Below the pieces are notes generated by a model. The model was not told the origin of the DNA, did no database searches, and saw only the letters and a program-made list of their open reading frames with translations. From Bordetella sp. H567 (GTDB taxonomy: Bacteria > Pseudomonadota > Gammaproteobacteria > Burkholderiales > Burkholderiaceae_B), in assembly GCF_001704295.1 (NCBI RefSeq), contig NZ_CP012334.1, forward strand, positions 2,864,084-2,928,083: a DNA stretch of 64,000 nt, in the 5' to 3' direction. The translations under genes were made by a program, and so were the position numbers. This document shows, in pieces, positions 33,100-53,271 of this stretch (within the stretch, counting starts at the first letter, position 1; every line of letters starts with the position of its first letter).

Positions 33100-33476
33100 G
33101 GATATGCTCCTTCGAGGGAATTCGGATACAAGCCGCGCGGGGTGGCCGCCACGTGATGGCCGCCTCGTTCGGGGGCGCTGGGCGGTTATACCCAAGTCGG
33201 CGCCCGCGCACAACGTCGGCGTCATCGTGCGGTGCTGTTCCATGGATACCGCGGGACGGTAAATCATTGGCGGCCGGCCAGTTGCCGCCGACGCGGCCGG
33301 ATGGCGCCGGATTCATTACTCCCGGCCGCCGGTTGCGGCCCTGCTTGCCGCGATCGGACGGGCTTGACCCATGTCAAGGTCCGCGTCTGCATATCGCACG
33401 AAGATCAAGGGACGACTCCCGTGACGGGGCGAACCCTATAAGCCCCGGGTGAACCCATATCCAAGTGAGAACGGAC
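33100..33476. other. Gene-free region between repeat protein and universal stress gene
   Basis: The only stretch above 300 bases without a gene. It holds the promoter region of the divergent repeat-protein gene and, at 33364-33377, an FNR-type box for the stress-protein gene. Short frames in it have no ribosome site and no family features. Confidence 0.6.
33364..33377 (+). promoter_or_regulatory. FNR/ANR-type box upstream of double universal stress gene
   Basis: TTGAC-CCAT-GTCAA. A class II arrangement would start transcription near 33412, 65 bases before the ATG. Confidence 0.7.
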
Positions 33477-34313
33477 ATGCTCAAACGCATCGCATTGCAC
33501 GTCGAGAAAGACCAGGCCTGTCCCGCTCGCACCGCGACCGCCGTGGCCTTGGCACAGCGGTTCCAGGCGGAGCTGTTGGGCATCTACATCAACTTTCCAT
33601 GGCCGCGGGAGTTCTTCGATGAGAGCATCGTCCCCAACGGCATCTACGAAGTCGTGCTGCAACAGCGCGCGCAGGAGCGCGCCCAATGCCACGCCGAATT
33701 CGATCGCTGCGTTGCCGACGCAGGGATCGCGACGCAATGGCGCACGCCGGAAGGCCGCCCGGAAGAAATCCTGGCGTCGCACGCCAGATGCGCCGACTTG
33801 CTGGTGCTGAGCCAGGCGAAGAACACGGAAACGGATTCGATCGTCGACCCCTACGTGATCGAGACCATCGTCCTGACCGCAGGCCGCCCGGTGCTGGCCG
33901 TGCCCTATGCCGGCGAGTACACCGGCATCGGCAACCGCATCCTGGTCTGCTGGGACGGCGGCCGCGAAGCGGCACGCGCCCTTGCCGACGCCGCGCCTTT
34001 CCTGGCTCAGACCCAGGACATCTTCGTCCTGACGCTCAATCCCGAATCCGAGGCCATACGAATGCGCGAAACCGCCCCCGACGACCTGCAGGCCTGGTTC
34101 CGCGCCCAAGGCTATGCGCAGCCGACCCTGGTGCGGCGCGAGACCGGAAGGCTGGGGATGGGAGCGGCGATCCTGAATGCCGCGTCCGATCACGGCTGCG
34201 ACCTGGTCGTGATGGGCCTGTACGGTCACAGCCGCGCGCGGGAATGGGTGCTGGGCGGCGCGTCACGCGACATCCTGCAGGCGATGACCGTGCCGGTCCT
34301 GTTCTCGCATTGA
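33477..34313 (+). CDS. Universal stress protein with two UspA domains
   Basis: A 278-aa tandem UspA protein. Domain 1 starts MLKRIALHVEKDQ, domain 2 includes RILVCWDGGREAARAL and ends LVVMGLYGHSRAREWVLGGASRDIL, with the G-2x-G-9x-GS-like nucleotide loop. The ATG at 33477 is preferred to the GTG at 33465 because it gives the standard UspA start. Tandem Usp genes near cbb3 oxidase genes are a known low-oxygen response feature. The FNR-type box upstream supports this. Confidence 0.92.
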   Translation: MLKRIALHVEKDQACPARTATAVALAQRFQAELLGIYINFPWPREFFDESIVPNGIYEVVLQQRAQERAQCHAEFDRCVADAGIATQWRTPEGRPEEILASHARCADLLVLSQAKNTETDSIVDPYVIETIVLTAGRPVLAVPYAGEYTGIGNRILVCWDGGREAARALADAAPFLAQTQDIFVLTLNPESEAIRMRETAPDDLQAWFRAQGYAQPTLVRRETGRLGMGAAILNAASDHGCDLVVMGLYGHSRAREWVLGGASRDILQAMTVPVLFSH

Positions 34314-34442: not shown

Positions 34443-35435
34443 ATGCGCCCCTACTCCATCTTCTCCGTGCCCGCCGGGCTGAACGCCGCCGACCGCCAGG
34501 CGCGCCGCCACGCGCTCTTGCGGCTGGGCCTGGCCTGGCTGGTCATGATGCAGGTCATGATGCTGGCCTGGCCGGCCTACGTCCGCCACGACGGCCTGCC
34601 GGCCCGCAACCTGGCGACCCTGGACTGGGCCATCGGCCTGATGAACTGGACCAGCCTGGTGCTGACCGTGCCGGTGCTGGCCTATTCCGCCTGGCCCTTG
34701 TGGCGCGGGGCCGCCCTGCGTCTATGGCAGGGGCGGGTCGGCATGGACCTGCCCGTGGCCATCGGCATGGCCGCTGCCTTCGTGCCCAGCGTCCATGCGA
34801 CCATCGCCGGTGCCGGCGACGTGTATTTCGATTCCGTCACGATGTTCGTCGCATTCCTGCTTACCGCCCGCTACCTGGCGCTCTGTGCGCGGCAATCCTG
34901 CGCCGGCGGCCGCCGTGACCGCCTGCGCCGCGCGCGCGCCCTGCTGACGCTGTATGCGGACCGCCGCGCGGCGGTTTTCAGCGCGGTGCAGCTGGCGGCC
35001 ACCTTCGCGACAGGCCTGATGTGGATCTGGATCGACCCGGGCCGCTTCCTGTCCGTGACCGTCGCGATGCTGGTGATCAGCTGCCCCTGCGCGATGTCGA
35101 TGTCCGTGCCGGCGGTGATGGCCAGCGCGGATGCGGCATTGGGTGCCCTGCCCCGCGCCGGCGAAGCCGACACGCGCGCCATCCTGGCGATCGCCGCGCG
35201 CAAGGCCACGCAGAACCTGTACGGCAGCGCCGCCTTCCACCTGCTGATGATGCCGCTGGCGGCCTTCGGCTGGGTCACGCCCTGGCTGGCGGCGATCACG
35301 ATGCTGGTGTCCTCGGTAGCGGTGGCCATGAATGCCTGGAGCCTGCGGCGGGGTTATCTCGATACCCACGAACGCGCACCGCATGGCGCTGCGGGTTGCC
35401 ACGCGCCCACGGCGGCGAACGCCGAAACGCCATGA
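34443..35435 (+). CDS. CcoI/FixI-like P1B ATPase reduced to its membrane domain
   Basis: A 330-aa membrane protein that follows the transmembrane part of the CcoI/FixI copper ATPase closely: LGLAWLVMMQVMML at 28-41, GMDLPVAIGMAAAFV at 100-114, YFDSVTMFVAFLLTARYLAL at 128-147, WIDPGRF at 196-202, the copper motif C214-P215-C216 in VISCPCAMSM, and a final pair including FHLLMMPLAAFGWVTPWLAA. The actuator domain (TGE) between the second helix pair and the next, the phosphorylation/nucleotide domain (DKTGT) after CPC, and the N-terminal metal-binding domain are all absent. Full CcoI is about 800 residues. The frame is unbroken, the stop overlaps ccoS by ATGA, and an FNR-type box is upstream, so it is probably expressed. 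It cannot pump by ATP hydrolysis; a copper channel or assembly-factor role is possible. Confidence 0.88.
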   Translation: MRPYSIFSVPAGLNAADRQARRHALLRLGLAWLVMMQVMMLAWPAYVRHDGLPARNLATLDWAIGLMNWTSLVLTVPVLAYSAWPLWRGAALRLWQGRVGMDLPVAIGMAAAFVPSVHATIAGAGDVYFDSVTMFVAFLLTARYLALCARQSCAGGRRDRLRRARALLTLYADRRAAVFSAVQLAATFATGLMWIWIDPGRFLSVTVAMLVISCPCAMSMSVPAVMASADAALGALPRAGEADTRAILAIAARKATQNLYGSAAFHLLMMPLAAFGWVTPWLAAITMLVSSVAVAMNAWSLRRGYLDTHERAPHGAAGCHAPTAANAETP

Positions 35436-35706: not shown

Positions 35707-35763
35707 GGGCTCCGGTGGCCGTCCACACCATGATGGCCCCACATGCATATGGGGAGCACATCG

Positions 35764-37299
<1,536 letters not shown>

Positions 37300-37309
37300 A
37301 GAGCCCACC

Positions 37310-37969
37310 ATGACGACTCGTAAACACGCTTTCTTCTCGCACCAGACCCTGGAAAAGAACATCGGGCTGATGATCATCGCCACCATCGTCGTCGTATCGA
37401 TGGCCGGTCTGGTGCAGATCATCCCACTGTTCTACCAGCATTCCACGACGCAGGCCGAGCCCGGCATCGAGCCCTACAGCCCGCTGCGGCTGATGGGACG
37501 CGACATCTATATCCGCGAAGGCTGCGTCGGCTGCCACTCGCAGCAGGTGCGCATGCTGCAGTCCGAGGTCCAGCGCTATGGCCCGTACTCCACGGCGGGC
37601 GAGTCGGTCTTCGACCATCCTTTCCTGTGGGGTTCCAAGCGTACGGGACCGGACCTGGCGCGCATCGGCGAACGCTATTCGGACGCCTGGCACCGCGAAC
37701 ATCTGCGCGACCCGCGCGCCGTCGTGCCGGAATCCAACATGCCCGCCTATCCCTGGTTGCGGACCACGTCGCTGGCCGGACAGAACGTGGCCGACCGCAT
37801 GCGCGCACTGCGCCAGCTGGGGGTGCCGTATACCGACCAGAACATCGCCGACGGGCCCAAGGCCCTGGAGGGCAAGAACGAGGAAGACGCGCTCGTGGCC
37901 TATCTGCAGGGCCTGGGCCTGGCCGCGCGCAAGGGCGCTCCGGCGCCGGCCACGCGCAAGGGAGACTGA
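37310..37969 (+). CDS. ccoO: Cytochrome cbb3 oxidase monoheme subunit II
   Basis: A 219-aa membrane-anchored c-type cytochrome. One N-terminal helix ([22 protein letters not shown]) and one heme site, C72-V-G-C-H76, followed by SQQVRML; a Met ligand lies in [10 protein letters not shown]. Transfers electrons from CcoP to CcoN. It starts 10 bases after ccoN. Confidence 0.97.
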
Positions 37970-37972
37970 ATC

Positions 37973-38149
37973 ATGGCTTATCTGACCGCTATCGTGACCG
38001 CCGTTTCCATGGCGACGTTCCTGGGCATCATCGTGTGGGCGTGGTCCCGGGGACGCCAGCCCGCCAACCGCGATTCCGCCCTGCTTCCCTTCGCGCTGCC
38101 GGAGGAATACACCGCCCCCGGCGCCGGCAAAGGACGCATCCATGAGTGA
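37973..38149 (+). CDS. ccoQ: Cytochrome cbb3 oxidase small subunit
   Basis: A 58-aa single-helix protein (MAYLTAIVTAVSMATFLGII then VWAWSRGRQP) with the CcoQ look. It stabilises CcoP in the complex. The end overlaps ccoP by 8 bases. Confidence 0.9.
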   Translation: MAYLTAIVTAVSMATFLGIIVWAWSRGRQPANRDSALLPFALPEEYTAPGAGKGRIHE

Positions 38150-39122
38150 CTTCACCACGCCCGTCTGGGGCTATTTCGTCGGCATCGTCGCCTCGGCCGG
38201 CATCGTGTGGTGCCTGTGGCTGCTGTACACCCAGCGCCGCTGGCTGGGCAAGGCGCCGGCGAACCAGCCGGTCGATACCGGCCACGTCTGGGACGGCGAC
38301 CTGACCGAGTTGAACAATCCCGTCCCGCGCTGGTGGACCGTCATGTACCTGCTGATGTGCGTGTTCGCCGTGGGCTACCTTGTGCTGTTTCCCGGCCTGG
38401 GGCAGTACACCGGCACGCTGGGCTACAGCAGCGCCGATGACCTGCGGCGGCAGCAGGACGCGCAGGAAGCAGCTACCCGCCCCTTGTACGCCCGCTACGA
38501 AGCCATGCCCGTGGCGGACATCGCGCGCGATACGCGCGCCCAGGAAATCGGCCAGCGCCTGTTCCTGAACAACTGCGCGCAGTGCCATGGTTCCGATGCC
38601 AAGGGGGCCCCGGGATTCCCCAACCTGACCGATGGCGACTGGCTGTACGGCGGCTCGCCCGATACCATCCTGCAGACCATCACGCACGGCCGCCATGGCG
38701 TCATGCCGGCGTGGACCGGCGTGATCGATGCCCGCACGGCATCCGATATCGCGGACTACGTGCGCTCGCTTTCCGGCTTGGGCGTGGACCGGTCGCGGGT
38801 GTTCAGCGGCAAGGACGCGTTCGGCACGTACTGCGTGGCCTGCCACGGCGTGGATGCCAAGGGCAACCAGGCGCTGGGCGCGCCCAACCTGACGGACAAC
38901 GTCTGGCTGTACGGCAGTTCGCAGCGCACCATCGAGGTCACCATCCTCAACGGCCGGGACAACCGCATGCCCGCGCAGGAAGGGGTCCTCACGTCGGCGC
39001 AGATCCGCATCCTGACCGCATGGGTGTGGCGGCAGTCGCACGCGGACGGCGACGCGGACGCCCCCGCGAATGGCGCGACCGGCGCCAACGCCGGCAATGC
39101 CCTGGCGTCGGGCAAGCCATGA
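38142..39122 (+). CDS. ccoP: Cytochrome cbb3 oxidase diheme subunit III
   Basis: A 326-aa protein with two N-terminal helices and two heme c sites, C145-A-Q-C-H149 and C231-V-A-C-H235, with Met ligands in HGVMPAW and NRMPAQEG. Accepts electrons from the quinol-oxidising chain and passes them to CcoO. Overlaps ccoQ by 8 bases and ccoG by ATGA. Confidence 0.97.
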   Translation: MSDFTTPVWGYFVGIVASAGIVWCLWLLYTQRRWLGKAPANQPVDTGHVWDGDLTELNNPVPRWWTVMYLLMCVFAVGYLVLFPGLGQYTGTLGYSSADDLRRQQDAQEAATRPLYARYEAMPVADIARDTRAQEIGQRLFLNNCAQCHGSDAKGAPGFPNLTDGDWLYGGSPDTILQTITHGRHGVMPAWTGVIDARTASDIADYVRSLSGLGVDRSRVFSGKDAFGTYCVACHGVDAKGNQALGAPNLTDNVWLYGSSQRTIEVTILNGRDNRMPAQEGVLTSAQIRILTAWVWRQSHADGDADAPANGATGANAGNALASGKP

Positions 39123-40498
39123 TCGAGGCCGAAGTCAAAATCTACGCGCGGGCGGTGACGGGCACCTTCGCCCGCTGGCGCATCGCCTTCGTCTTCCTGA
39201 CCCAGGCGCTGTTCTACGGGTTGCCGTGGCTGCAATGGGACGGACGCCAGGCCGTGCTGTTCGACCTGGGCGCGCGACGCTTCTACCTGTTCGGTCTGGT
39301 GCTCTGGCCCCAGGACGTGGTCTACCTGGCGGTGCTGCTGGTCATCTCGGCACTGGCGCTGTTCCTGTTCACCGCGCTGGCGGGACGCCTGTTCTGCGGC
39401 TACGCCTGTCCGCAGACCGTCTATTCCGAGATCTTCGCCTGGATAGAGCGCAAGGTGGAAGGCGACCGCGCGGCGCGCCAGCGGCTGGACCAGGCGCCCT
39501 GGACGGCGCGCAAGCTGCGGCTGAAGGCCACCAAGCATGTACTGTGGCTGGCCATCGCATGGTGGACGGGAAGCACCTTCATCGGCTATTTCGCACCCAT
39601 CCGGCAGCTGGCGCACGATCTGTTCACGCTGCAGCTGGGGCCGTGGCAATGGTTCTGGATCGTGTTCTACAGCCTGGCGACCTGGGGCAATGCCGGCTTC
39701 CTGCGCGAATCGGTATGCAAGTACATGTGCCCCTACGCGCGCTTCCAGAGCGTCATGGTCGACCAGGACACCCTTGTCGTGACCTACGACAAGGGGCGCG
39801 GCGAACCGCGCGGCGGCCGTTCGCGCCAGGCGGACCCGGCATCGCTGGGACTGGGCGATTGCGTCGACTGCCACTGGTGCGTACAGGTCTGCCCCACCGG
39901 TATCGACATCCGCAACGGCCTGCAGTACCTGTGCATCGGCTGTGGCGCCTGCGTGGACGCCTGCAACGACGTCATGAAGAAAATGCACTATGCGCCGGGG
40001 CTGATCCGCTACGCCTCCGAGCGCGCCGTGACGGACCGCCTTTCCCGCCGTGCCGCCCTGCGTCGGCTGCTGCGTCCGCGCACGCTGGCGTACGGGACGC
40101 TGCTGGGCGCCCTGGCGATCGGCCTGATGGGCGCGCTATGGCTGCGCCAGCCGCTGCGCATGGACGTCATCCGCGACCGCGGCGTGCTGGGCCGCGAGGT
40201 CGCCGGGGGCATGATCGAGAATGTCTACCGCCTGCAGTTCATGAACACCTCGGACACGCCGCTGGACGTGGCCCTGTCGGCGGAGGGCATGGAGGGCATC
40301 GTCGTTGCGCTGCCCTCCGGCGCGGCGAGCGTCCATGTCAATGCCCTGGACAACAAGGTCGTCGCCGCGGTGGCCCGGGCTCCCGCGCGCGATGCCGCGG
40401 CGGGGGCGCACAAGATCGTGATTCACGCCCTGGGCACCGGTCCCAATGGCGCCGTCTTGCGCACGGACGAAGCCGCGAGTTTCTTCATTCCCCAGTGA
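39119..40498 (+). CDS. ccoG: CcoG, ferredoxin-type Cu(II) reductase for cbb3 assembly
   Basis: A 459-aa membrane protein with N-terminal helices, an LFCGYACPQTVYSEIF motif, a CPYARFQSVM segment, and two 4Fe-4S binding clusters (CVDCHWCVQVCPTGID, then CIGCGACVDACNDV). The C-terminal domain is a periplasmic Ig-like fold. CcoG reduces copper for CuB insertion. It overlaps ccoP by ATGA. Confidence 0.96.
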   Translation: MIEAEVKIYARAVTGTFARWRIAFVFLTQALFYGLPWLQWDGRQAVLFDLGARRFYLFGLVLWPQDVVYLAVLLVISALALFLFTALAGRLFCGYACPQTVYSEIFAWIERKVEGDRAARQRLDQAPWTARKLRLKATKHVLWLAIAWWTGSTFIGYFAPIRQLAHDLFTLQLGPWQWFWIVFYSLATWGNAGFLRESVCKYMCPYARFQSVMVDQDTLVVTYDKGRGEPRGGRSRQADPASLGLGDCVDCHWCVQVCPTGIDIRNGLQYLCIGCGACVDACNDVMKKMHYAPGLIRYASERAVTDRLSRRAALRRLLRPRTLAYGTLLGALAIGLMGALWLRQPLRMDVIRDRGVLGREVAGGMIENVYRLQFMNTSDTPLDVALSAEGMEGIVVALPSGAASVHVNALDNKVVAAVARAPARDAAAGAHKIVIHALGTGPNGAVLRTDEAASFFIPQ

Positions 40499-40870: not shown

Positions 40871-41512
40871 CTACATCAACAGGCCGTTTTCCGCCGCATA
40901 GCGCGCCAGTTCGGCGTTGCTGCGCAGGCCCATCTTTTCCAGGATGCGCGCACGGTAGGTGGTGACCGTCTTCGGGCTGAGATGCAGCACCTCGGCAATG
41001 CGCGCAAGGCTTTCGCCCTTGGCGATCATCTTCAGCACTTCCAGCTCGCGATTCGACAGCGCCTCGTGGCTTCCCGCGCTGCCGCCGCCCATCATGACGG
41101 CGAAGCGCTCCATCAACGAGGGGCTGACGTATTTGCCGCCCGCGGCTGCCTTGCGCACGGCCTCGATCAAGGTCGACGTCGGGCTGTCCTTGGTCAGGTA
41201 GCCCGCCGCGCCCAGTTTCAATGCCCGCACGGCGTAGATGTCCTCGGCGTAGGTGCTGAGCACCAGGACCGCCAGCCCGGGCTTTTCCGCGCGCAGCGAT
41301 TGCAGCAGATCCAGGCCGTTCTTGCCCGGCATCGCGATGTCGATCAGGGCGACATCGAAATGCCGCGCCTTTACTTGTTCCAGCGCTTGCAGCGCGTTTT
41401 CCGCTTCGCCCACGACGCGGATGTCGGTGGCCGAACTAAGCATCAGGCGCACGCCATTGCGCACGACGGTATGGTCGTCCACCAGCAGGACGTCTATGAA
41501 TTCACTGGCCAT
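40871..41512 (-). CDS. NarL/FixJ-family response regulator
   Basis: A 213-aa regulator with receiver (phospho-acceptor D58 in ALIDIAMPGKNG, K110-region TKDSPTS) and LuxR-type HTH at about 150-205 (LSNRELEVLKMIAKGES, HLSPKTVTTYRARIL). The ATG at 41512 follows GGAAG at 6-7 bases; an ATG two codons earlier is too close. It overlaps the HisKA_3 kinase gene and is the output of the four-gene relay. Its convergent neighbour is the cco cluster. Confidence 0.94.
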   Translation of the reverse strand: MASEFIDVLLVDDHTVVRNGVRLMLSSATDIRVVGEAENALQALEQVKARHFDVALIDIAMPGKNGLDLLQSLRAEKPGLAVLVLSTYAEDIYAVRALKLGAAGYLTKDSPTSTLIEAVRKAAAGGKYVSPSLMERFAVMMGGGSAGSHEALSNRELEVLKMIAKGESLARIAEVLHLSPKTVTTYRARILEKMGLRSNAELARYAAENGLLM

Positions 41513-42992
41513 CGACATCTTCCAAAGGCAGTCTGAGCGCCACGCGTGTCCCCTTGCCGGCCACGCTGGATACGGTCAATTGCCCACCGAAATGGCGGGT
41601 ACGTTCCTGCATGCCCTGGATGCCCCAGGAATGCCGATTCGCCGGCTGCTCGGCGGCAAAGCCCTTGCCGTCGTCGCAGATTTCCACCATGACCACGCCA
41701 TCCTTCGCCGCGGCGTGCACCGACACCAGCGACGCCTCGGCGTGGCGCACGACATTGGTCAAGGACTCCTGAACGATGCGAAACAGCATGGTGCTGCGAT
41801 CCGCATCGACCGGCGCGGCGGCGGCCGTGGGCGCGATGATGCAGTCACATACCAGCCCGAAACGGGCCTCCACCTGGCTGGCATACCACGCGATGGCATC
41901 CCACACGCCGAGCTGGTCCAGCACGCTGGGCCGCAGGTCGTTGATGACGCGCCGGACCGCCTGGATGGCGTCCTCGGTGAGCCGCGCGGCCTCCACCAGC
42001 AGCGGATCGGGCGTCCCGCCGGCCTTCGCGACACGTTCGGCGGACACGGACACGTACGCCTTGATGCCCGTGAGCAGGCCGCCCAATTCGTCGTGGATCT
42101 CCTGGGCGATACGCTTGCGCTCGCTTTCCTTGATGCTTTCCTGGTGCGCGGCCAGCCGGCGCAGGGCCTCGCGCGATTCGCGCAGGGTTTCCTCGGCCAG
42201 CTTGTCCTGCGTGATATCGATCAGGATGCCCTGCAGGAACAGCTTGCGGCCGGCCGGATCGCGCACCACTTCGGCCTCGTCGCGGAACCAGCGTTCCCGG
42301 CCGTCCTTGCCGACCAGCCGGTATTCCAGGCGCATGGGACCGCCGTCGACCATGCGGCGATGAATCGCCGCCTCGGCGCGACGACGGTCCGCCGGATGAA
42401 TGGTGGCCAGGCGCAAGGAAGGATCGGCCAGCCATTCCTCGGCCGTGTAGCCCAGCGTGCGCACCTGCGGACTGACGTAACGGAAACCACCCGCCTCACC
42501 CAGTTCGCGGACATAGGTGATCGTTTGCGTCTGCTCGACCAGGGTGCGGAACATCGCCTCGGCCTGCCGCTTATCCTCCAGCATCCGCTGCCCTCGCAGC
42601 ATGCGCTCGATGGCCGCGGGCAAGGCCTGCAGGTAATGGCGGTCCTGGTCCTTGTAGAGGTAGTCGCGCGCCCCATGGCGCATCATCTCGACGGCGACGG
42701 CGGCGCTTTCTTCGCCGGTCAGCGCCAGCACCGGGATCGGCACTTCACCGGCGTCGTCCGAGAGTTCCGCCAGGAATTCCAGGCCGGTCCTGTCGGGCAG
42801 CCGGTAATCCAGCAGCACGGCATCGAAGTCCTCCGAGCGCAAGCGAGCCAGGGCCTCCGCCGCTGTCTCGGATTCGGCCACGTCGAAACGGTGGACCGGG
42901 TCCGCCGCCAGGGCGCGGCGGCACGCCATGCGGTCCACCACATCGTCTTCGACGAGCAGGATACGGATCGGGGACCCGCTAAGGGAGTTCAC
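41502..42992 (-). CDS. REC-PAS-HisKA_3 hybrid histidine kinase
   Basis: A 496-aa protein, N-terminal receiver with D62 (LLDYRLPDRTG), one PAS domain with PAC (about 145-265; GRERWFRDEAEVV) and a NarX-type dimerisation domain with phospho-acceptor H300 (RIAQEIHDELGG), ending in an ATPase domain (CDDGKGF, GIQGMQER). This is the natural partner of the NarL-type regulator encoded after it. The GTG at 42992 overlaps the CheY-like gene; a TTG at 43034 is less likely. Confidence 0.92.
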   Translation of the reverse strand: MNSLSGSPIRILLVEDDVVDRMACRRALAADPVHRFDVAESETAAEALARLRSEDFDAVLLDYRLPDRTGLEFLAELSDDAGEVPIPVLALTGEESAAVAVEMMRHGARDYLYKDQDRHYLQALPAAIERMLRGQRMLEDKRQAEAMFRTLVEQTQTITYVRELGEAGGFRYVSPQVRTLGYTAEEWLADPSLRLATIHPADRRRAEAAIHRRMVDGGPMRLEYRLVGKDGRERWFRDEAEVVRDPAGRKLFLQGILIDITQDKLAEETLRESREALRRLAAHQESIKESERKRIAQEIHDELGGLLTGIKAYVSVSAERVAKAGGTPDPLLVEAARLTEDAIQAVRRVINDLRPSVLDQLGVWDAIAWYASQVEARFGLVCDCIIAPTAAAAPVDADRSTMLFRIVQESLTNVVRHAEASLVSVHAAAKDGVVMVEICDDGKGFAAEQPANRHSWGIQGMQERTRHFGGQLTVSSVAGKGTRVALRLPLEDVDGQ

Positions 42993-43392
42993 TGATCGTC
43001 CAGTAAAGGTCGATGGAGCGCATGACGTCGACAAACTGGCGGTAATCCACCGGTTTGGCGATATAGCCCGCCACGCTCATGTTGAAGCTGTTTATCTTGT
43101 CCTGCTGTTCTTCCGACGTCGTCAAGACGATCACCGGCAGGCGCCGCAACTGTTCATCCTTCTTGATCACATGCAGGAACTCGATGCCGTTCATCACCGG
43201 CATATTCAGATCCAGCAGGATGATGCAAGGCACGTCGTTGGCGGGATCGCGCAGATAGGCGATGGCCTCTTCGCCGTTCTCGCAGCGGACCAGCGGATTC
43301 GCGACGCTGATTTCCTTGAGGGCGCGCTTGACCGTCATGGCATCCACGGTATCGTCCTCGACCAGCAGTATGGGCGTTGTCGAAGTTTTCAT
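42979..43392 (-). CDS. Single-domain CheY-like response regulator
   Basis: A 137-aa receiver only, with D13-D14, phospho-acceptor D61 (IILLDLNMPVMNG), T-box VLTTSEE and K113-region AKPVDYRQF, of the Rcp1-like group. It overlaps both the FixL-like kinase (ATGA) and the hybrid kinase, so it probably carries phosphate between the two. Confidence 0.93.
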   Translation of the reverse strand: MKTSTTPILLVEDDTVDAMTVKRALKEISVANPLVRCENGEEAIAYLRDPANDVPCIILLDLNMPVMNGIEFLHVIKKDEQLRRLPVIVLTTSEEQQDKINSFNMSVAGYIAKPVDYRQFVDVMRSIDLYWTISELP

Positions 43393-44882
43393 GGGCTGAT
43401 ACCCCGCTCAGTCCGCGCCTGTGTGTTATCCGAAGCGGGGAGCGTGAAATAGAACGTGGTTCCGGCACCCACCACCGATTGCAGGGTGACGTCGGAGCCG
43501 TACATTTCGAGGATCTTCTTGACCAAGGTCAGGCCGACGCCCGTGCTTTCGATACGGTCGCGCGGCGCCAGCGTCTGGAACAACTGGAAAATGCGTTCGT
43601 GGTGGCGCTCTTCTATGCCGGGGCCATTGTCCGCCACGGAAAAGCGCCAGCGTTCCCCTGCCGGCTCGCATCCGATGCGTACGATGCCCTGGGGCTTGTC
43701 CATGTATTTGATCGCATTGGAAATCAGGTTCTGGAAAACCTGCTGCATGCGCGTGCGTTCGGCGACCACGACAGGCAGCGGATCGTCGATGCTTACCTGG
43801 ATGTGCCCGGGGGGCGCCAGCAGGTCGATGATCTCCCGCACCAGCAGATCCAGGTCCACGGGTACGCGGGCCTCCTTGATGCGTCCGATCCGCGAATACT
43901 CCAGGATGCCGTCTATCAGGCCGCTCATGCGATGTACCCGGCCGGCGAGCAGCCGCAGGTGCTCGCGCCCCTCGTCGTCCAGCTTGTCCGCGTAGTCGGC
44001 CATCAGCCAGCTCGCCAGGGAGCTGATGCCGCGCAGCGGTGCCTTCAGGTCGTGCGAAACGATATAGGCGAAATTGGTCAGCTCCTCGTTTGCGCTCGTC
44101 ACCTCGCGCAGCAACTGCGCGTACTCGGCTTCGGAGCGCTTGCGTTCGGTGATGTCGCGCACCATGCCGGTGAACATGCGACGGTCGCCCACCCGCATTT
44201 CGGCGACGGCCAGGTCCATGGGAAACACCGTGCCATCCTTGCGCATGCCTACGACCTCGCGACCGATGCCGATGATCTTTTTCTCGCCAGTGCGCAGGTA
44301 GTGATCCAGGTAGCCGTCATGCATCTCCTGGTAAGGACTGGGCATCAGCATGGACACATTCCGCCCCAGCACTTCGGCTTCGGTATAGCCGAAGATGCGC
44401 ACGGCCGCGGGGTTGAAGCGTTCGATGCTGCCTCGTTCGTCGATGGTCACGATGGCATCGACGGCCGTGTCGAAGACTGCCCGCAGCCGGGCCTCGTTGT
44501 CCCGCACGGCCTGCTCCGCCTGCTTGCGGGGCCGGATGTCGCGGATGCTGATCATGAACAGGGGCAGGCCCCAGTGCGTGGTCAGGGGGGAAACACAGAC
44601 CTCCACGGGGAACGCCGTGCCGTCCGCCCGCCGCCCGGAGACTTCAAGGAATTCGGCGTCGGTGGCGTGGGCACGGCCCTCGCCCTGCCCGTCCACGCGC
44701 AAGTCTGGCAACAGGTCCGACAGGTGCAGGCCTGCCAGGCCGTCGGCCTCGTGGCCAAACAGGCGGGCGGTGGCGTCGTTGCCCATCGCGAGGCGACCCT
44801 GGGCGTCCGAGATAACGATCGCTTCCTTCGCGGATCGAATCAGCCAATCCAGCGTCTGGCTTTCCAGTATGTGGTCTTTCAT
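43389..44882 (-). CDS. FixL-like heme-PAS sensor histidine kinase
   Basis: A 497-aa cytoplasmic kinase: PAS 1 at about 8-118, PAS 2 at about 130-247, dimerisation domain with phospho-acceptor H277 (FAYIVSHDLKAPLRG) and a phytochrome-like ATPase domain (NLISNAIKYM, DNGPGI, GVGLTLVKKILEM). PAS 2 matches the heme domain of Bradyrhizobium FixL from memory: proximal His as H188 in MHDGYL, distal Arg as R208 in GIGREVVG, Ile/Leu pocket residues I203 and L224. The position equal to FixL R206 is H194. An oxygen-sensing role is likely. It heads the four-gene minus-strand operon. No strong ribosome site was seen; the start gives complete PAS 1. Confidence 0.9.
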   Translation of the reverse strand: MKDHILESQTLDWLIRSAKEAIVISDAQGRLAMGNDATARLFGHEADGLAGLHLSDLLPDLRVDGQGEGRAHATDAEFLEVSGRRADGTAFPVEVCVSPLTTHWGLPLFMISIRDIRPRKQAEQAVRDNEARLRAVFDTAVDAIVTIDERGSIERFNPAAVRIFGYTEAEVLGRNVSMLMPSPYQEMHDGYLDHYLRTGEKKIIGIGREVVGMRKDGTVFPMDLAVAEMRVGDRRMFTGMVRDITERKRSEAEYAQLLREVTSANEELTNFAYIVSHDLKAPLRGISSLASWLMADYADKLDDEGREHLRLLAGRVHRMSGLIDGILEYSRIGRIKEARVPVDLDLLVREIIDLLAPPGHIQVSIDDPLPVVVAERTRMQQVFQNLISNAIKYMDKPQGIVRIGCEPAGERWRFSVADNGPGIEERHHERIFQLFQTLAPRDRIESTGVGLTLVKKILEMYGSDVTLQSVVGAGTTFYFTLPASDNTQARTERGISP

Positions 44883-45070
44883 GCGATGGCGCGCGGCGGC
44901 CGGAATGAATGGATGGCGGAGGCGGCATCCGCATCGCGGCGCCGTTCGGACTTGCGTTCGATCCCGCGATTTTAAGCGAGCGCACACATTTCCGTGGCCC
45001 TTTTTGGGTTTCCATGAGCGGCCCGGGCACTCGGGCCCGGGCACGCATGGATACGCATCTTGCCCGTCAC

Positions 45071-45814
45071 TCAATGCATATGCAGGCCGCCGTTGATGGC
45101 CAAATTGGCGCCGGTGATATAGGCCGCGTCGTCGGACGCGATAAACACCGCCAGGGCCGCGACTTCCTCCGGCCGGCCCAGGCGCCTCAGGGGAATCAAA
45201 GGCAGCACCTTGGTCTCCAGGACGTTGGGCGGCATGCTGGTCACCATCCTGGTCGCCAGGTAGCCCGGGGAAATCGTATTGACGGTGACCCCGTGGGTGG
45301 CCATCTCCAGGGCCAGGGACATGGTGAAACCATGGATGCCCGCCTTGGCGGCGGCATAATTCGCTTGCCCGAACTGCCCACGCTGCCCATTGACGGACGA
45401 GATGTTGATGATCCGCCCCCAGCGCTTGGCCAGCATGCCTTCCAGGACGGGCTTGGTCATGTTGAATACCGAGTCCAGGTCGGTACGCAGGACACGGTCC
45501 CAATCGGCGTGCGTCATCTTCCGCACGCTCGCGTCTTTCGTGATGCCAGCGTTATTGACGAGGATGTCCACGGTCCCGACTTCCGCCTGGATGCGCTGCA
45601 CACAGGCCAGGCAGTTGTCGTAATCGGAGACGTCGGCGGGGTAGGCGGCGATGTCCATGCCCATGCGCCGGTGCTTGTCCAGCCAGTCCGATATATCGCG
45701 ATTCGCGGGCGAGGCCGTGACGACGATGCGGTGGTTTGCCTGATGGAACCGGGCCACCATGGCCTCGCCCAGCCCACCCATTCCACCTGTAATCAAAACG
45801 ATTCTTTGCGGCAT
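45071..45814 (-). CDS. phbB: Acetoacetyl-CoA reductase
   Basis: A 247-aa short-chain dehydrogenase of the PhbB/FabG group: nucleotide site VLITGGMGGLGEAM, NNAGITKDASVRKM, catalytic Ser in NISSVNGQRGQFG, Y-x-x-x-K in NYAAAKAGI. Reduces acetoacetyl-CoA to (R)-3-hydroxybutyryl-CoA with NADPH. The QRGQFGQ segment is typical of PhbB. ATG 45814 follows GGGAGG. Divergent from a PHB synthase with an FNR-type box between. Confidence 0.93.
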   Translation of the reverse strand: MPQRIVLITGGMGGLGEAMVARFHQANHRIVVTASPANRDISDWLDKHRRMGMDIAAYPADVSDYDNCLACVQRIQAEVGTVDILVNNAGITKDASVRKMTHADWDRVLRTDLDSVFNMTKPVLEGMLAKRWGRIINISSVNGQRGQFGQANYAAAKAGIHGFTMSLALEMATHGVTVNTISPGYLATRMVTSMPPNVLETKVLPLIPLRRLGRPEEVAALAVFIASDDAAYITGANLAINGGLHMH

Positions 45815-45924: not shown

Positions 45925-46010
45925 GGTCGCATCGGCTTGCGTTACATCAATACATCCTTTCGCCACTGTCCTAGCATCCCTGCATGATCCCAGTCTCACA
46001 AGGTGGCGCG

Positions 46011-47816
46011 ATGTCCAGGCACTTCGACGCGATGAAGGAACCGGCGATGAGCAGCGCCGCGGCGGGAAAAAATGCGCAGCCCGTGGCGTCCGGTCCGCCG
46101 CCGCAATGCGCCCCGCTGCCACCCGAGCCACCCTGGCATGGCCTGGACCGTCTCAGCCTGGCCGCGATCGCCCGCAATGCGGGTGGGGTCTCTCCGATCG
46201 GCATTTATCTCGACTGGCTCGATTGGGCCATGCACTTGGCCGTTTCCCCGGGCAAGCAGCTCTCCCTCCTGCAGAGCGCGCAGCTTTCCCCGGAACAAGC
46301 CGCCGCGCGATACCAGGCCCGCCACCACAAACCCGATCCGCGTTTCCGCCACCCGGATTGGACGAACTGGCCGTACAGCGTATGGCGCACGGCGTTCCAA
46401 CGCATGGAGGGCGGCTGGGACGCGGCGACCCATGATGTCCGCGGCGTGTCGACACAGCACGCGAAAGTAATGAATTTCATCGGCCGGCAAGTGCTGGACA
46501 TACTGTCGCCCAGCAACTTCTGGTTCACCAACCCCGAGGTGATGGAAACGGTCGTGCAGACCCATGGGTTGAATCTGCTGCAAGGCGCCCGACGCCTGCA
46601 CGCGGATGCCTGGGACCTGTTGTCGAATTGCGCCCCCGGCACATCGGCGGAAAACCGCCAGGTTTTCCGGGTCGGCAAGGACGTCGCCGCCACGCCCGGT
46701 GTCGTGGTTTACCGCAATGCGCTTTTCGAGCTCATCCGGTATGCGCCGCGCACGCGTCAAGCCTGGCGCGAACCCGTCGTGATCGTGCCGTCGTGGCTGC
46801 TGAAGTACTACATCCTGGACCTGTCCCCGCACAATTCTCTGGTGCGATATCTGGTGGATCAGGGCCATACCGTCTTCGCGGTGTCCTGGAAGAATCCGCG
46901 CGACGAAGCGCGCGATTGGGGGCTGCCCGAGTATCTGCACGACGGCTTGTTCACCGCGCTTCGGCATGCGTCGCAGGAATGCGGCGGCTGCGCGGTCCAT
47001 GGGGTGGGCTACTGCCTGGGCGGCACGCTGCTGTCCATCGGCGCCGCGGCGCTGGCGCGCCGCCACGAACGCCGTCCGCTGCTGCGCAGCGTCACCTTGC
47101 TGGCCGCGCAGACGGACTTCGAAGAGCCGGGAGAACTCGGCCTGTTCCTGAGTCCCAGCGGGGTCGCCTGCCTGGATGCCCTGATGTGGCAGCAAGGCTA
47201 CCTGGACGGCAAGCAGCTCGCCGGCGTGTTCCAGATATTGAACTCGCGCGACCTGATCTGGTCGCGCCTGGTCAGGGATTACCTGCTGGGACGACAACTG
47301 CAGATCAACGATCTGATGACGTGGAATGCCGACACCACGCGCCTTCCCTACAAGATGCACAGCCAGACCCTGCACGAGCTGTATCTGGACAATGATCTGG
47401 CGGCCGGCCGCCTGTGCGTGGACGGAGAACCGGTCGCCTTGGCCGATATCCGGTCGCCGATGTATGTCGTCGCCACGGAGCGCGACCATATCTCGCCCTG
47501 GGAATCGGTCTACAAGCTTCACCTTCTGAACCACCGGGACCTGACGTTCGTACTGTGCTCCGGGGGACACAACGTCGGAATCGTCAGCGAACCGGGCCGG
47601 CCGCACCATTATTTCCGGTGGCGGCTGCGGCATCGCGGGGAACGCTACCGGCCCCCGGGCGAATGGCAGGCACACGCCGACAAGGTCGACGGATCCTGGT
47701 GGCCGCACTGGCAGGCATGGCTGGCCAGGCATTCCAGCGCCAAGGGCGCGCCGCCGGCCTTTCCGCCGGATACCGCCTTGTGCGATGCGCCCGGAACCTA
47801 TGTGTACGAGCACTGA
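46011..47816 (+). CDS. phaC: Class I poly(3-hydroxybutyrate) synthase
   Basis: A 601-aa PhaC with the family lipase-like box VGYCLGGTL (Cys nucleophile), catalytic Asp in VATERDHISPW and His in SGGHNVGIV. Polymerises hydroxybutyryl-CoA to PHB granules. The start is uncertain: 46011 follows AAGGTGG; ATG 45984 and 46047 are alternatives. The divergent phbB makes its substrate. Storage under oxygen limitation would consume NADPH and acetyl-CoA. Confidence 0.93.
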   Translation: MSRHFDAMKEPAMSSAAAGKNAQPVASGPPPQCAPLPPEPPWHGLDRLSLAAIARNAGGVSPIGIYLDWLDWAMHLAVSPGKQLSLLQSAQLSPEQAAARYQARHHKPDPRFRHPDWTNWPYSVWRTAFQRMEGGWDAATHDVRGVSTQHAKVMNFIGRQVLDILSPSNFWFTNPEVMETVVQTHGLNLLQGARRLHADAWDLLSNCAPGTSAENRQVFRVGKDVAATPGVVVYRNALFELIRYAPRTRQAWREPVVIVPSWLLKYYILDLSPHNSLVRYLVDQGHTVFAVSWKNPRDEARDWGLPEYLHDGLFTALRHASQECGGCAVHGVGYCLGGTLLSIGAAALARRHERRPLLRSVTLLAAQTDFEEPGELGLFLSPSGVACLDALMWQQGYLDGKQLAGVFQILNSRDLIWSRLVRDYLLGRQLQINDLMTWNADTTRLPYKMHSQTLHELYLDNDLAAGRLCVDGEPVALADIRSPMYVVATERDHISPWESVYKLHLLNHRDLTFVLCSGGHNVGIVSEPGRPHHYFRWRLRHRGERYRPPGEWQAHADKVDGSWWPHWQAWLARHSSAKGAPPAFPPDTALCDAPGTYVYEH

Positions 47817-48650: not shown

Positions 48651-51377
48651 TCAGCGCACGTACACCGGATCTACCGCCAGCGGCTGCACGGGCCCGATGT
48701 CGGCACTGTTCAGCGCCAGGCGGATCAGGACTTCCGATCCCATGCCCTGCGATTGCGCGCCAAAGCCGCAGCGCCGCGCCAGTTCCAGCATGGCGACGTT
48801 GTCGCCCATGACCGTTCCCCACAGCGATCCCATCCCGCGCCCGGCGCAATAGCGGATCAGGCGCGTCAGCAAAAGCGTACCGAGACCGCGGTTCTTCAGG
48901 TCGGATCGCACCATCAGGGCAAACTCGGCGGACTCCAGGTCGGGATCCGCGATCGCCCGGGCCTCGCCCAACACGCAGGCCGCCCCGTCGGCGTCCTTGC
49001 GGATCGCCAGGAAAGCCATCTCGCGGTCGTAATCCAGTTGCACCATGCGGGCCAGCTCACGGTGCTGCAGCTGGCCGATCATGCCAAAAAAACGGCGCCT
49101 CACGTCGTCCGGCGTCAACGCGGTGAAAAAGCGGGCGTACCGTGCCTCGTCGTCCGGACGGGCCGGCCTGATCAGGATGGTGGAATCGCCCCAGGGCATG
49201 CGCTCTTCCAGTGCCGCCGGATACGGCAGGATGGACAGGCGGTCGGTGGCCAGGCCGGCATGCCGGGCGACGCCGACGCGCGCGTCGACGGCGACCACGC
49301 CGCCGGCGTCGGCCAATAGCGGATTGATGTCCAGGCTGACGATCTCCGGGATATCGCACATCAGCCGCGACACCTGCATCAGCACCCGGTAGAGGGCCAC
49401 GTGGTCGATGGCGGGCTGGTCCCGATACCCGGCCAGCAGCGCCGCCACGCGCGTACGCGCCACCATGTCGCGGGCCAGCGGCTCGTTCAGCGGGACCAGT
49501 CCCACCGCGCGGTCCGCCACGACCTCCACCGCCGTGCCGCCGTGGCCAAACAGGACGATGGGGCCGAATACCGCGTCCACCGAGGCGCCGACGATCAGCT
49601 CGTGCGCATGCGGCCGGCGCAGCATCTTCTGGACGATGAAGCCTTCGATCGACGCGTCGGGCCGCAACTGGCCGGTCCGCCGCACGATGGCCCGGACAGC
49701 GCCCCGGACCTGGTCCGCGGTTTCGAGGTCCAGCGCCACGCCGCCGGCGTCGGATTTGTGCGATATCGCCGAAGACAGGATCTTCACCGCCACGGGATAG
49801 CCCAGCGCCGCCGCGCAGGCAACCGCCTGTTCGGCGTCGGCCGCGATGCGGGTCTCCAGCACGGGTATCCCGTAGGCGGCCAGGACCGCCTTGGCCTCGC
49901 TGTCCGCCAGCATGGTCCGGCCGGCAGCGAGCACGCCCGCGACGATGGCGCGGACCTGCTCGGGATTGCCTGTCGTTTCACCGCCGTCCGACGAGGGCGT
50001 CTCCAGCAGCAGCGCCTGGTTGCGCTGGTACTCCACGACGTACAGGAACGCGTCCACGGCTTGTTCGGGCGTGTCGTAGGTGGGAATGCCGGCCCGGCGG
50101 AAGCGTTTGCGCGCATGGGATACGGCGTCGCCGCCCAGCCAGGACGCGAACACATTGCGTGGCGCGGCCACGATAGCGGACTGCAGGGCCGCCGCGATGT
50201 CCTCGCTGGGCACGATGGCGGTGGGCGCATGCAGGAACAGCACGGCATCGCTGCCGCGATCGCGCAGCAGGATATCCATCGCCTCCACGTAACGGCTTAC
50301 CGGTGCGTCGCCCACGATATCCACGGGATTGGCGTGCGACCAGGTCGCGGGGAGCACGGCATTCAACGCGTCCAGGGTGGCGGGGTCCAGCGGCGCCAGC
50401 GTACCGCCGCCGCGCACCAGCGCATCGGTCGCCATGACGCCGGCGCCTCCACCGTTGGTCATGATGGCCAGGCGGTCGCCGCGCAAGGGGCGCGCGCGCG
50501 CCAGCGTTTCGACGGCACCGAACAGCTCGTCCGTGGTGTCCACGCGCAGCATGCCGGCGCGGCGTATCGCGGCGTCGTAGACAATGTCCGAACCGGCCAG
50601 CGCGCCGGTATGCGTGGCCGCGGCGCGCGCGCCTTCGGCCGCCCGGCCCGCCTTGACCACGACGACGGGCTTGTTGCGCGCCGCGCGCCGCGCCGCCGAC
50701 ATGAATTTGCGGGCCGCGGTCACCGACTCGACATACAGCAGGATGGCACGGGCGTCCCCGCAATCGGACAGGTAGTCCAGCACATCGCCAAGATCGACGT
50801 CCGCGCTATCGCCCAGCGTGATGAAATGCGAAAAACCGATATTGCGGCTGTTCGACCAGTCCAGCACCGCGGTGGCCAACGCACCGGACTGCGAGACGAA
50901 GGCCAGCCGCCCGCGCAACGCCATGGCGGGCGCGAAACTGGCGTTCAGGCCCAGCCCCGGGATCAGGACTCCCAGGCAATTGGGACCGAGTATGCGCAGC
51001 AAGTGCGGCCGCGCCGCGGCCAGCATCGCCGCCCGCAAGGCGCCTCCCGCGACCGTTGCCGCGGACAGGCCGGCGCTCAAGACCACCGCGGCCTTCGTGC
51101 CCTTGGCTCCCAGCTCGGCGATCAGTCCGGGGACTGTCGCGGCCGGCGTGCAGATGACCGCGAGATCAGGAGCGGCCGGGAGGCTCGCGATATCGGGATA
51201 ACACGGGATGCCGCGCACGACGCAGTGCTTGGGATTGACGGCATAGATCTTGCCCGCGTAGCCCGCCGCCCGGACATTGGACAGCACGTGGGCGCCGACG
51301 GCACAGGGCCGCTCCGAGGCGCCGACGATCGCCACCGACGCGGGCTGGAACAAGGCCCTTAGATTCCTGATGCTCAT
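48651..51377 (-). CDS. ADP-forming acyl-CoA synthetase fused to GNAT acetyltransferase
   Basis: A 908-aa fusion. The N-terminal part is a CoA-binding/succinyl-CoA-ligase-like module (ASVAIVGASERP, LRILGPNCLGVL), followed by a ligase domain (MTNGGGAGVMATDALV), an ATP-grasp-like domain (YPVAVKILSSAISHKSDAGG, GASVDAVFGPIVLFGHGG) and a C-terminal GNAT acetyltransferase (LMVRSDLKNRGLGTLLLTRL). This is the Pat/YfiQ architecture of protein lysine acetyltransferases and ADP-forming acetate-CoA ligases. The long in-frame N-terminal extension to 51890 overlaps the alcohol dehydrogenase and is rejected. Divergent from the dehydrogenase with an FNR-type box between. Confidence 0.93.
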   Translation of the reverse strand: MSIRNLRALFQPASVAIVGASERPCAVGAHVLSNVRAAGYAGKIYAVNPKHCVVRGIPCYPDIASLPAAPDLAVICTPAATVPGLIAELGAKGTKAAVVLSAGLSAATVAGGALRAAMLAAARPHLLRILGPNCLGVLIPGLGLNASFAPAMALRGRLAFVSQSGALATAVLDWSNSRNIGFSHFITLGDSADVDLGDVLDYLSDCGDARAILLYVESVTAARKFMSAARRAARNKPVVVVKAGRAAEGARAAATHTGALAGSDIVYDAAIRRAGMLRVDTTDELFGAVETLARARPLRGDRLAIMTNGGGAGVMATDALVRGGGTLAPLDPATLDALNAVLPATWSHANPVDIVGDAPVSRYVEAMDILLRDRGSDAVLFLHAPTAIVPSEDIAAALQSAIVAAPRNVFASWLGGDAVSHARKRFRRAGIPTYDTPEQAVDAFLYVVEYQRNQALLLETPSSDGGETTGNPEQVRAIVAGVLAAGRTMLADSEAKAVLAAYGIPVLETRIAADAEQAVACAAALGYPVAVKILSSAISHKSDAGGVALDLETADQVRGAVRAIVRRTGQLRPDASIEGFIVQKMLRRPHAHELIVGASVDAVFGPIVLFGHGGTAVEVVADRAVGLVPLNEPLARDMVARTRVAALLAGYRDQPAIDHVALYRVLMQVSRLMCDIPEIVSLDINPLLADAGGVVAVDARVGVARHAGLATDRLSILPYPAALEERMPWGDSTILIRPARPDDEARYARFFTALTPDDVRRRFFGMIGQLQHRELARMVQLDYDREMAFLAIRKDADGAACVLGEARAIADPDLESAEFALMVRSDLKNRGLGTLLLTRLIRYCAGRGMGSLWGTVMGDNVAMLELARRCGFGAQSQGMGSEVLIRLALNSADIGPVQPLAVDPVYVR

Positions 51378-51486
51378 CTTCGTCTTCCCGCAAACAGTCC
51401 ATGCCGGCGCGCGGCGACATCGCCGATGCCATCCGCGCGGATCGACCCACGCAGGTAGACCTTCCTCCATCCGGCGACATGGCGTG

Positions 51487-51500
51487 TTGATCCACGTCAA
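51487..51500. promoter_or_regulatory. FNR/ANR-type box between the synthetase and alcohol dehydrogenase
   Basis: TTGAT-CCAC-GTCAA. Predicted plus-strand start near 51535 with TACATT at 51522-51527 as -10, and 24 bases of leader to the dehydrogenase ATG. Confidence 0.75.
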
Positions 51501-51558
51501 CGCGGCCGCTGCCACGGCCGCTACATTTGGATCCAATGGCCACATCGAAGGAGGCGCC

Positions 51559-52542
51559 ATGGATGCGATGGTCTTGCACAAGCCAGGCCAGGCTCTCACG
51601 CTCGAAACGCGGGCGCTGCCCCACCCGGCCCCAGGCCAGGTCCGTATCCGCGTCGAGGCCTGCGGCATCTGCCGCACCGACCTGCACGTCGTGGACGGCG
51701 AGCTGCCCGACCCTGCCTTGCCCATCGTTCCCGGACACGAGATCGTGGGTATCGTCGAAGCGCTCGGCACGGAGCGGCCGGGCCTGGTTCCCGGCATGCG
51801 CGTGGGGGTGTCCTGGCTGGCGCATACCTGCGGCCATTGCCCATACTGCGGCAGCGGCCGCGAGAACCTGTGCGATACGCCGCTGTTCACGGGCTATACG
51901 CGCGACGGCGGATTCGCCACGCACGTCCTGGCCGATGCCGGCTTCGTGTTTCCACTGGCGGGCTTCAGCGATCCGGTCGCGGCGGCACCCTTGATGTGCG
52001 CCGGCCTGATCGGATGGCGATCGCTGCGCGCTGCCGGCGATGCCCGGCGCATCGGCCTGTACGGATTTGGCGCCGCCGCGCATATCCTGGCCCAGGTCTG
52101 CCGCTGGCAGGGACGATCGGTGTATGCCTTCACCCGACCCGGCGATGAGGCGGCGCAGGCCCTTGCGCATACGCTGGGGGCGGTCTGGACGGGCGGAGCC
52201 GACCAGCGGCCGCCCGTCGCCTTGGATGCGGCGATCATCTTCGCGCCCGTGGGCGCGCTGGTGCCGGCCGCACTGGCGGCCGTGCACAAGGGCGGACGGG
52301 TGGTTTGCGGTGGCATACACATGAGCGACATCCCGGGCTTTCCTTACCGGCTGCTGTGGGAAGAGCGGCAAATCGTGTCCGTGGCCAACCTGACGCGTCG
52401 CGATGGCGAGGAGTTCCTGGGCGTCGCCGCCGCCGCCCAGGTCCAGACGCATACCAAGGCCTATCCGCTTTCGCACGCCAACGAGGCACTTGCGGACCTG
52501 CGCGAAGGCAGGCTGGCGGGCGCGGCCGTGCTGGTGCCTTGA
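51559..52542 (+). CDS. Zinc-dependent alcohol dehydrogenase family protein
   Basis: A 327-aa MDR dehydrogenase: catalytic zinc site ACGICRTDLHVVDGE and VPGHEIVGIV, structural zinc cysteines in CGHCPYCGSGRENLC, nucleotide fold around LYGFGAAAHI. An AAGGAGG precedes the ATG. Ethanol or aldehyde interconversion as electron sink in oxygen limitation would fit the FNR-type box and the divergent acyl-CoA synthetase. Confidence 0.93.
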   Translation: MDAMVLHKPGQALTLETRALPHPAPGQVRIRVEACGICRTDLHVVDGELPDPALPIVPGHEIVGIVEALGTERPGLVPGMRVGVSWLAHTCGHCPYCGSGRENLCDTPLFTGYTRDGGFATHVLADAGFVFPLAGFSDPVAAAPLMCAGLIGWRSLRAAGDARRIGLYGFGAAAHILAQVCRWQGRSVYAFTRPGDEAAQALAHTLGAVWTGGADQRPPVALDAAIIFAPVGALVPAALAAVHKGGRVVCGGIHMSDIPGFPYRLLWEERQIVSVANLTRRDGEEFLGVAAAAQVQTHTKAYPLSHANEALADLREGRLAGAAVLVP

Positions 52543-53192: not shown

Positions 53193-53271
53193 GAGTCGCC
53201 TCACCATCGCGCTGGCCAGCATGAACGCCGCACCATCGCCTCGGCCCGATATACGCGACACAAGGACAACC

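Follow-up and report, generated by a model that had tools for sequence, protein, structure and literature searches.

The closest described relative of the protein analyzed here is CcoI/FixI, the CopA2-type P1B ATPase of cbb3 oxidase biogenesis. The copper chaperones of oxidase assembly Sco/SenC, PCuAC, and CtaG/Cox11 are periplasmic or membrane-anchored proteins with folds unrelated to that of CcoI. According to the cited passages of a study of Rhodobacter capsulatus, CcoI has two membrane copper sites, the CPC motif and an Asn-Met-Ser set (NMS motif), its movement of Cu needs ATP hydrolysis, and neither added Cu nor extra CopA replaces it (PMC8475189). In passages of a review, it is described as puzzling that the CuB center of cbb3, which is filled from the periplasmic side, strictly depends on the exporter CcoI; that added Cu cannot stand in for this ATPase is taken as a sign that copper must be routed through the cytoplasm (PMC7558416). 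As far as the cited sections go, a study of Caulobacter from 2025 covered Alphaproteobacteria, relying on Pfam architectures in which the ATPase domains are required (PMC12617631), and a survey of betaproteobacterial copper proteins left out the ATPases that serve oxidases (PMC6769254). Our searches of open-access full texts turned up no description of a CcoI that lacks its ATPase domains. To our knowledge, the protein described below would be the first case of a P-type ATPase maintained by selection after the loss of all of its cytosolic domains.

We analyzed a 64-kb stretch of the Bordetella sp. H567 genome (64,000 nucleotides, here called the window), which contains one unbroken open reading frame (ORF) with an ATG start that encodes a 330-amino-acid homologue of CcoI lacking the ATPase engine, here called the short form (Table 1). 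The only Pfam match of this protein above the cut-off was to the end part of E1-E2_ATPase (profile positions 106 to 174 of 181, protein residues 163 to 229), which is the stretch with the CPC helix. The sole other row, DUF1509, fell below its own cut-off, and the Pfam scan matched no Hydrolase/P-domain or metal-binding family. The NCBIfam Cu-ATPase model TIGR01511 matched in pieces, with 63 bits against a cut-off of 397. In an alignment of 79 short and 45 full-length rows, the median number of residues before the first membrane helix was 31 in the short form and 201 in full-length CcoI, that of the loop between the fourth and fifth helices was 21 versus 126 (the actuator domain), and that of the linker between the sixth and seventh helices was 35 versus 293 (the P and N domains). 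DKTG occurs in none of the 79 short rows and CPC, in the sixth membrane helix, in all 79; the letters TGE occur in 8 of the 79, at whatever place in the sequence. By this alignment, the N-terminal metal-binding region (PF12156/CxxC), the actuator domain, and the DKTGT phosphorylation motif with its P/N domain are each judged absent from the short form. The structure prediction for the H567 protein contains eight long helices, and the eight-helix P1B membrane fold is thus predicted to be retained; Foldseek searches with this model gave modest E values, with one match at an E value of ≤0.001 and a TM-score of about 0.45. The preliminary description of this DNA had reported membrane helices and CPC kept, three cytosolic parts gone, and one unbroken 330-codon frame, and the alignment to CcoI and structure prediction that it proposed as checks bear out this anatomy. 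Since the ATP site is missing, this anatomy excludes ATP-driven transport by the short chain alone.

The short rows exclude one locus at a contig end (L088), and repeats were collapsed from 79 to 74 rows for the copper-site counts given below. For the full-length rows, three of 29 candidates (L030 to L034 and L092 to L115) were left out as being 780 amino acids or less, and 19 rows from other genomes, some of which start late, were added; collapsing repeats reduced the 45 rows to 42. The uncollapsed rows underlie the tree, the loop medians, and the motif and composition counts.

Table 1. Features of the window, with positions counted from its first nucleotide
Feature	Position	Strand	Basis or remark
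Universal stress protein gene	33465-34313	+	PF00582; directly upstream of short ccoI
FNR-type box TTGACCCAGGTCAA	34394-34407	.	49 bp upstream of short ccoI ATG
Short ccoI (engine-less CcoI homologue)	34443-35435	+	ORF, profile searches, alignment, predicted structure; residues CPC 214-216, His266, Met287, Ser290
ccoS, 45 aa	35432-35569	+	TIGR00847 and PF03597; start overlaps stop of short ccoI
Second FNR-type box TTGATCCGCGTCAA	35693-35706	.	Ahead of ccoN
ccoN, catalytic subunit, presumed copper (CuB) receiver	35743-37299	+	TIGR00780, 759.7 bits
ccoO	37310-37969	+	TIGR00781
ccoQ-like small protein, 58 aa	37973-38149	+	Position and ORF only
ccoP	38142-39122	+	TIGR00782
ccoG, homologue of cupric reductase CcoG	39119-40498	+	TIGR02745, 481.7 bits
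PAS histidine kinase	41502-43034		FNR-box-bearing region
PAS histidine kinase	43389-45503		FNR-box-bearing region
phaC	45984-47816		FNR-box-bearing region
Alcohol dehydrogenase-like ORF	51277-52542		FNR-box-bearing region
P2-type cation ATPase	53251-56025 (scanned)		FNR-box-bearing region

The gene order and the FNR-type box upstream of the short ccoI that the preliminary description had noted are both present, with ccoS and ccoNOQP downstream, and in relatives we found the box, ccoS, and ccoN in the same arrangement. In named genomes (80 loci listed of 564 confirmed), ccoN lies 3' of the short ccoI on the same strand in all 55 named short-form loci listed (L088, at its contig end, was left out), and a ccoS-like small ORF lies 3' of the short ccoI in the same number (55 of 55; phmmer E value of <1e-3 against a small set of candidate ORFs). 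In many Achromobacter loci, ccoS goes undetected by plain tblastn. With both genes downstream in every named locus listed, chance does not explain the presence of the short form at this place. An FNR-type box was found within 350 bp upstream of the short ccoI in 48 of 54 named loci listed, against a background of 89 of 1,733 tiles that itself includes the same boxes. The box lies at −48 to −52 in all 26 box-bearing loci among the 30 rows listed, so that its position is conserved in relatives. In Cupriavidus, Ralstonia, and Pigmentiphaga, this position is occupied by the gene for full-length CcoI, which indicates that the short form is a replacement in place. One genus-mate (G004; L126, 3013 to 5705) departs from the usual same-strand order, with the short ccoI and ccoS divergent from ccoN.

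A tblastn search of the 80 loci listed (E value, 1e-4) did not recover the gene directly upstream in H567. Since it was not found beside the short ccoI elsewhere, the universal stress protein is probably not a partner, and we ruled out this ATP-binding protein as a substitute engine. Across the window, we counted eight FNR-type boxes (TTGAY-N4-RTCAA; 33364, 34394, 35693, 45911, 47879, 51487, 53179, and 56477), and the region around them is perhaps a low-oxygen regulon region.

To follow the short form beyond this locus, as the preliminary description had proposed, we scored 200 sampled genomes of the family and found the short form in 134, a full-length form in 14, and undecided pieces at contig ends in 2 (G087 and G209). 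All 134 short-form genomes contain ccoN sequence, intact or not, including two without an HMM match to ccoN in which ccoN sequence adjoins the short ccoI. Counted from the oxidase side, 151 of the 200 genomes have a ccoN match at an E value of ≤1e-100 (the curated cut-off is exceeded in 148), and these comprise 132 with the short form, 15 with a full-length CcoI (13 by search plus G155 and G170 on inspection, with CcoI proteins of 753 and 767 amino acids), and 4 in which the contig ends upstream of ccoN (G096, G131, G165, and G179). The short form is the usual CcoI in most sampled ccoN-bearing members of the family. One genome that is 66% complete (G078) has a full-length form without a ccoN match. 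We saw no genome with both forms among the 200 at an E value of ≤1e-15 with up to 10 candidates scored per genome, a search that a weak full form, as in G155 and G170, would escape. In a set of 61 genomes (H567 and 60 relatives), 24, including H567, have a match at an E value of ≤5.5e-73 in an open frame of 312 to 370 amino acids, and none of these 24 has a second match below 1e-15 when all candidates are scored; in the other families of the order in this set, good matches are split, in frames of about 750 to 950 amino acids. PF12156, the N-terminal domain of many CcoI proteins, was found in 7 of the 200 genomes, all of them with the full form.

The 80 named loci listed comprise 56 of the short type (L036 to L091), from Achromobacter, Bordetella, Pusillimonas, Pollutimonas, Paenalcaligenes, Advenella, Castellaniella, Pelistega, Zwartia, Sheuella, and other or uncultured relatives. 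The remaining 24 are of the full-length type and come mostly from Cupriavidus, Ralstonia, and Pigmentiphaga (one, L098, is frame-broken and another, L099, is cut by a contig end). To look for short forms outside the family, we scanned 369 genomes of the class with a profile, scoring at most 6 candidates per genome. Of these genomes, 157 had a match, and only H567 itself exceeded 150 bits; matches in short frames came from G285 and G513, at contig ends, the contigs of G522 and G579 end close by, and matches in frames of 574 to 640 amino acids came from G258, G322, G409, and G410. No place in a plasmid collection covered 80% of the short CcoI query. Two further variants were seen. In G209 (L128, 3532 to 4263), a still shorter version aligns to residues 5 to 294 with about 46 residues missing (around 124 to 170), and it may be an artifact of the contig end in a fragmented genome. 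In G030 (L125, genus g26), a full-length 827-amino-acid CcoI with the Asn site lies beside its own ccoN, while at least eight of its genus-mates have the short form; the G030 protein is either a retained ancestor or part of a whole cluster that was reacquired.

The preliminary description had itself named two ways in which its reading could fail, a deletion made in sequencing or assembly and a separate full CcoI elsewhere with this gene decaying in relatives, and we encountered neither. The first is ruled out, as H567 is assembled as one 5.53-Mb contig and the same form recurs in 134 of the 200 family genomes. As to the second, we found no separate full CcoI in the H567 genome, in which PF12156 is absent and the four other PF00122 ATPases are CopA-like (807 amino acids), ZntA-like (with CPC and no YN), KdpB-like, and P2-type, the ZntA-like and KdpB-like labels being ours, from motifs and position. 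That the short form is a decaying ccoI remnant or an artifact of assembly is hardly credible. One genome does look like decay: in G118 (L127), the short ccoI is split into two parts separated by about 1 kb, and the matches to ccoN and ccoP are broken up as well, so that its cco cluster seems, from the sequence, to be decaying together. However, the recurrence of the short form across the family, its invariant residues, the conserved position of the FNR box, and the low ratios of nonsynonymous to synonymous change described below are all at odds with decay, as is the way in which the gene is lost. Of five genus-mates of H567, four have neither ccoN nor the short form, and both genes are present in the fifth, which argues that loss of the short form follows loss of ccoN.

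In a FastTree phylogeny of 297 shared columns, rooted by our choice on one full-length CcoI, the short forms make up one clade (local support, 0.83), and its sister group contains 24 full-length CcoI proteins of Pigmentiphaga, Cupriavidus, Ralstonia, and G030 (joint support, 1.0). The remaining full-length CcoI proteins fall outside both groups. The tree places the descent of the short form within CcoI, and a single origin with one loss is probably the history, being the simplest reading of a clade whose support is moderate. For 120 Achromobacter pairs, the ratio of nonsynonymous to synonymous change (dN/dS; Nei-Gojobori method, own script) had a median of 0.14 (range, 0.05 to 0.32) in the short ccoI and was 0.066 in ccoN in the Achromobacter comparison; by this measure, the short forms are under purifying selection. 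The short CcoI descends from a known family, yet its sequence is without the features that define a P-type ATPase.

CPC, Met287, and Ser290 do not vary among the 74 distinct short rows, and the Asn of the second site is replaced by His266 in all 74, whereas it is Asn in all 42 full-length rows. Aligned in this way, the short form does not have the NMS motif as such, with Met and Ser kept and Asn changed to His. We equate Met101 and positions 146 and 173 of the short form with Met148, Glu205, and Asp337 of LpCopA, the cytosolic entry, and we count position 130 among the residues presumed equivalent to its entry and exit sites. Met101 is found in all 74 short rows, position 146 is Glu in 66, Ala in 7 (H567 included), and Asp in 1, position 173 is Asp in 57 and Asn in 17, and position 130 is Asp in 63 and Glu in 11. 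Residue 146 (window positions 34878 to 34880) is Ala in H567, B. petrii, and a few others and Glu in most short and full-length forms, so that, as aligned, Ala146 is a further change within the short clade. Both groups have a clear consensus in 141 columns, of which 30 differ; in the short form, Met or His is gained at 7 of these 30 and Met is lost at one. The gains at 212, 218, 220, and 269 are near CPC or His266 in the sequence, and, counted over the shared columns, Met, His, and Cys together average 27.8 in the short form versus 19.8 in the full form (uncollapsed rows). As the rows are related, these gains are not independent events and fall on the branch between the two groups.

The short CcoI could be purely a scaffold for CcoN assembly that handles no copper, with CPC as a structural relic; changes that are exclusive to the short form and not in ligands, such as Gln183 (74 of 74 short rows versus 0 of 42 full-length rows), could mark a new protein interface, and ccoS and ccoN adjoin the gene in every named locus listed. 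Against this, an invariant CPC, Met287, and Ser290 together with a new His exactly at the second copper site are hard to account for without metal, and we consider a pure scaffold improbable. The invariant ligands, the His in the copper site, and the Met and His gains around CPC favor a role in copper handling over a mere scaffold. A passive Cu(I) channel or exchanger, through which Cu(I) would move down its electrochemical gradient, possibly inward and so opposite to the ancestral pump, would fit a pump path whose residues are largely kept at its entry, core, and exit, the enrichment in Met, His, and Cys, and a predicted fold as in copper pumps. It is generally understood, however, that Cu+ leaving the cell would have to move against the membrane potential and out of a cytosol with very little free copper, and an ungated copper leak would be toxic, so that such a channel, though somewhat more plausible than a scaffold, is still unlikely.

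An engine might also be supplied by another protein. The short form could pair with a full-length P1B ATPase such as CopA as the source of ATP-driven motion, and a TIGR01511 match at an E value of ≤1e-60 is present in 133 of the 134 short-form genomes (the exception, G198, is 78% complete). The same match occurs in 188 of the 200 genomes and includes ZntA-like pumps at that level, so that this nearly universal association carries little information on a Cu ATPase as the partner. Sco/SenC is likewise uninformative as a distinguishing partner, as it is present in all 134 short-form genomes and in 191 of the 200 overall. No gene for an ATPase domain was found among the conserved neighbors tested, and it is general knowledge that conformational coupling in P-type pumps runs within one chain. 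Pairing with an engine in trans is accordingly less probable than either of the two alternatives above.

We then considered whether the oxidase is the sole one in any host of the short form. In 5 of 20 short-form genomes tested (G027, G085, G009, G103, and G029), ccoN is the only COX1 match; bd oxidase is present in G009, G103, and G029 and absent from G027 and G085, in which cbb3 is the sole terminal oxidase recognized by the COX1 and bd families. In both G027 and G085, the short form is the only match to the short CcoI query, and there is one TIGR01511 ATPase in each; that of G027 has no MMQVMM-type motif and has an N-terminal motif that we take to be of the CopA type. Barring an unrecognized oxidase or pump, cbb3 in G027 and G085 must therefore assemble with the engine-less form, and assembly of the cbb3 oxidase without a CcoI pump is very likely. 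In the cited part of one report, Taylorella is described as having cbb3 as its one terminal oxidase and as growing microaerophilically (PMC3250509). In passages of another, a B. bronchiseptica strain with cco as its only oxidase could not be made, though cco was highly transcribed (PMC11257404). If B. bronchiseptica carries the short form, that result, as far as those passages describe it, weakens a role in copper relay or assembly, with other causes also possible.

Taken together, the sequence comparisons make it highly probable that the short CcoI is a genuine, functional cbb3 assembly factor. How it would work is less certain, and we see about even chances that it is an ATP-independent membrane relay of Cu(I) for the CuB center of CcoN. 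In such a relay, copper would be supplied by other proteins (CopA-type export with Sco or PCuAC chaperones and the CcoG reductase), the short CcoI would take up Cu(I) and hold it within the membrane, and Cu(I) would then reach the CuB site while CcoN is being assembled, through an exchange of ligands driven by the affinity of the receiver and not by ATP. A purely periplasmic relay would have no need of the cytosolic entry residues, and as these are mostly kept, a path through the membrane fits better. The ATP hydrolysis that R. capsulatus CcoI needs, according to the passages cited, weakens the relay reading (PMC8475189). The finding in the same passages that R. capsulatus CcoI is replaced by neither Cu nor CopA hints, by analogy, that full-length CcoI may also act in handing copper over, a role that would persist in the short form, and this is opposite to the cytoplasm-routing reading in the cited part of the review (PMC7558416). 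More tentatively, and with slightly less confidence than in the relay itself, we suggest that a former ATPase underwent a single, ancient conversion to an ATP-independent Cu(I) conductor or insertase that metallates CuB and has taken the place of the pump in most of the family; this protein would be the membrane half alone, with its site apparently rebuilt as Cys-Cys-His/Met/Ser.

If the short form is such a conductor or insertase, then cbb3 can be assembled without the need for CcoI to pump copper out of the cytosol. The retained, altered membrane half itself suggests that a cbb3 oxidase can be built without an ATP-burning pump. A natural engine-less CcoI separates the pump from the other roles of CcoI, in at least two hosts apparently without another terminal oxidase, and makes the question of pump versus other role directly testable.

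The short form resembles CcoI/FixI in its locus, its ccoS neighbor, its eight membrane helices, its CPC motif, its grouping in the tree, and an MMQVMM-type motif in the first helix (77 of 79 short rows and 38 of 45 full-length rows, by a loose pattern). It differs from CcoI/FixI in being without the N-terminal metal-binding region, the actuator domain, and the DKTGT/ATP domain and in having a His for the second-site Asn and extra Met and His residues near CPC. Unlike the short form, the CopA-like gene of the H567 genome (2296406 to 2298829), of the CopA1-type exporters, is full-length, has its engine, and has no MMQVMM-type motif. In its proposed job, bringing copper to an oxidase without ATP, the short form would be like Sco/SenC, PCuAC, and CtaG/Cox11, and it would be unlike them in that the proposed holder of the copper is an eight-helix membrane protein derived from a pump.
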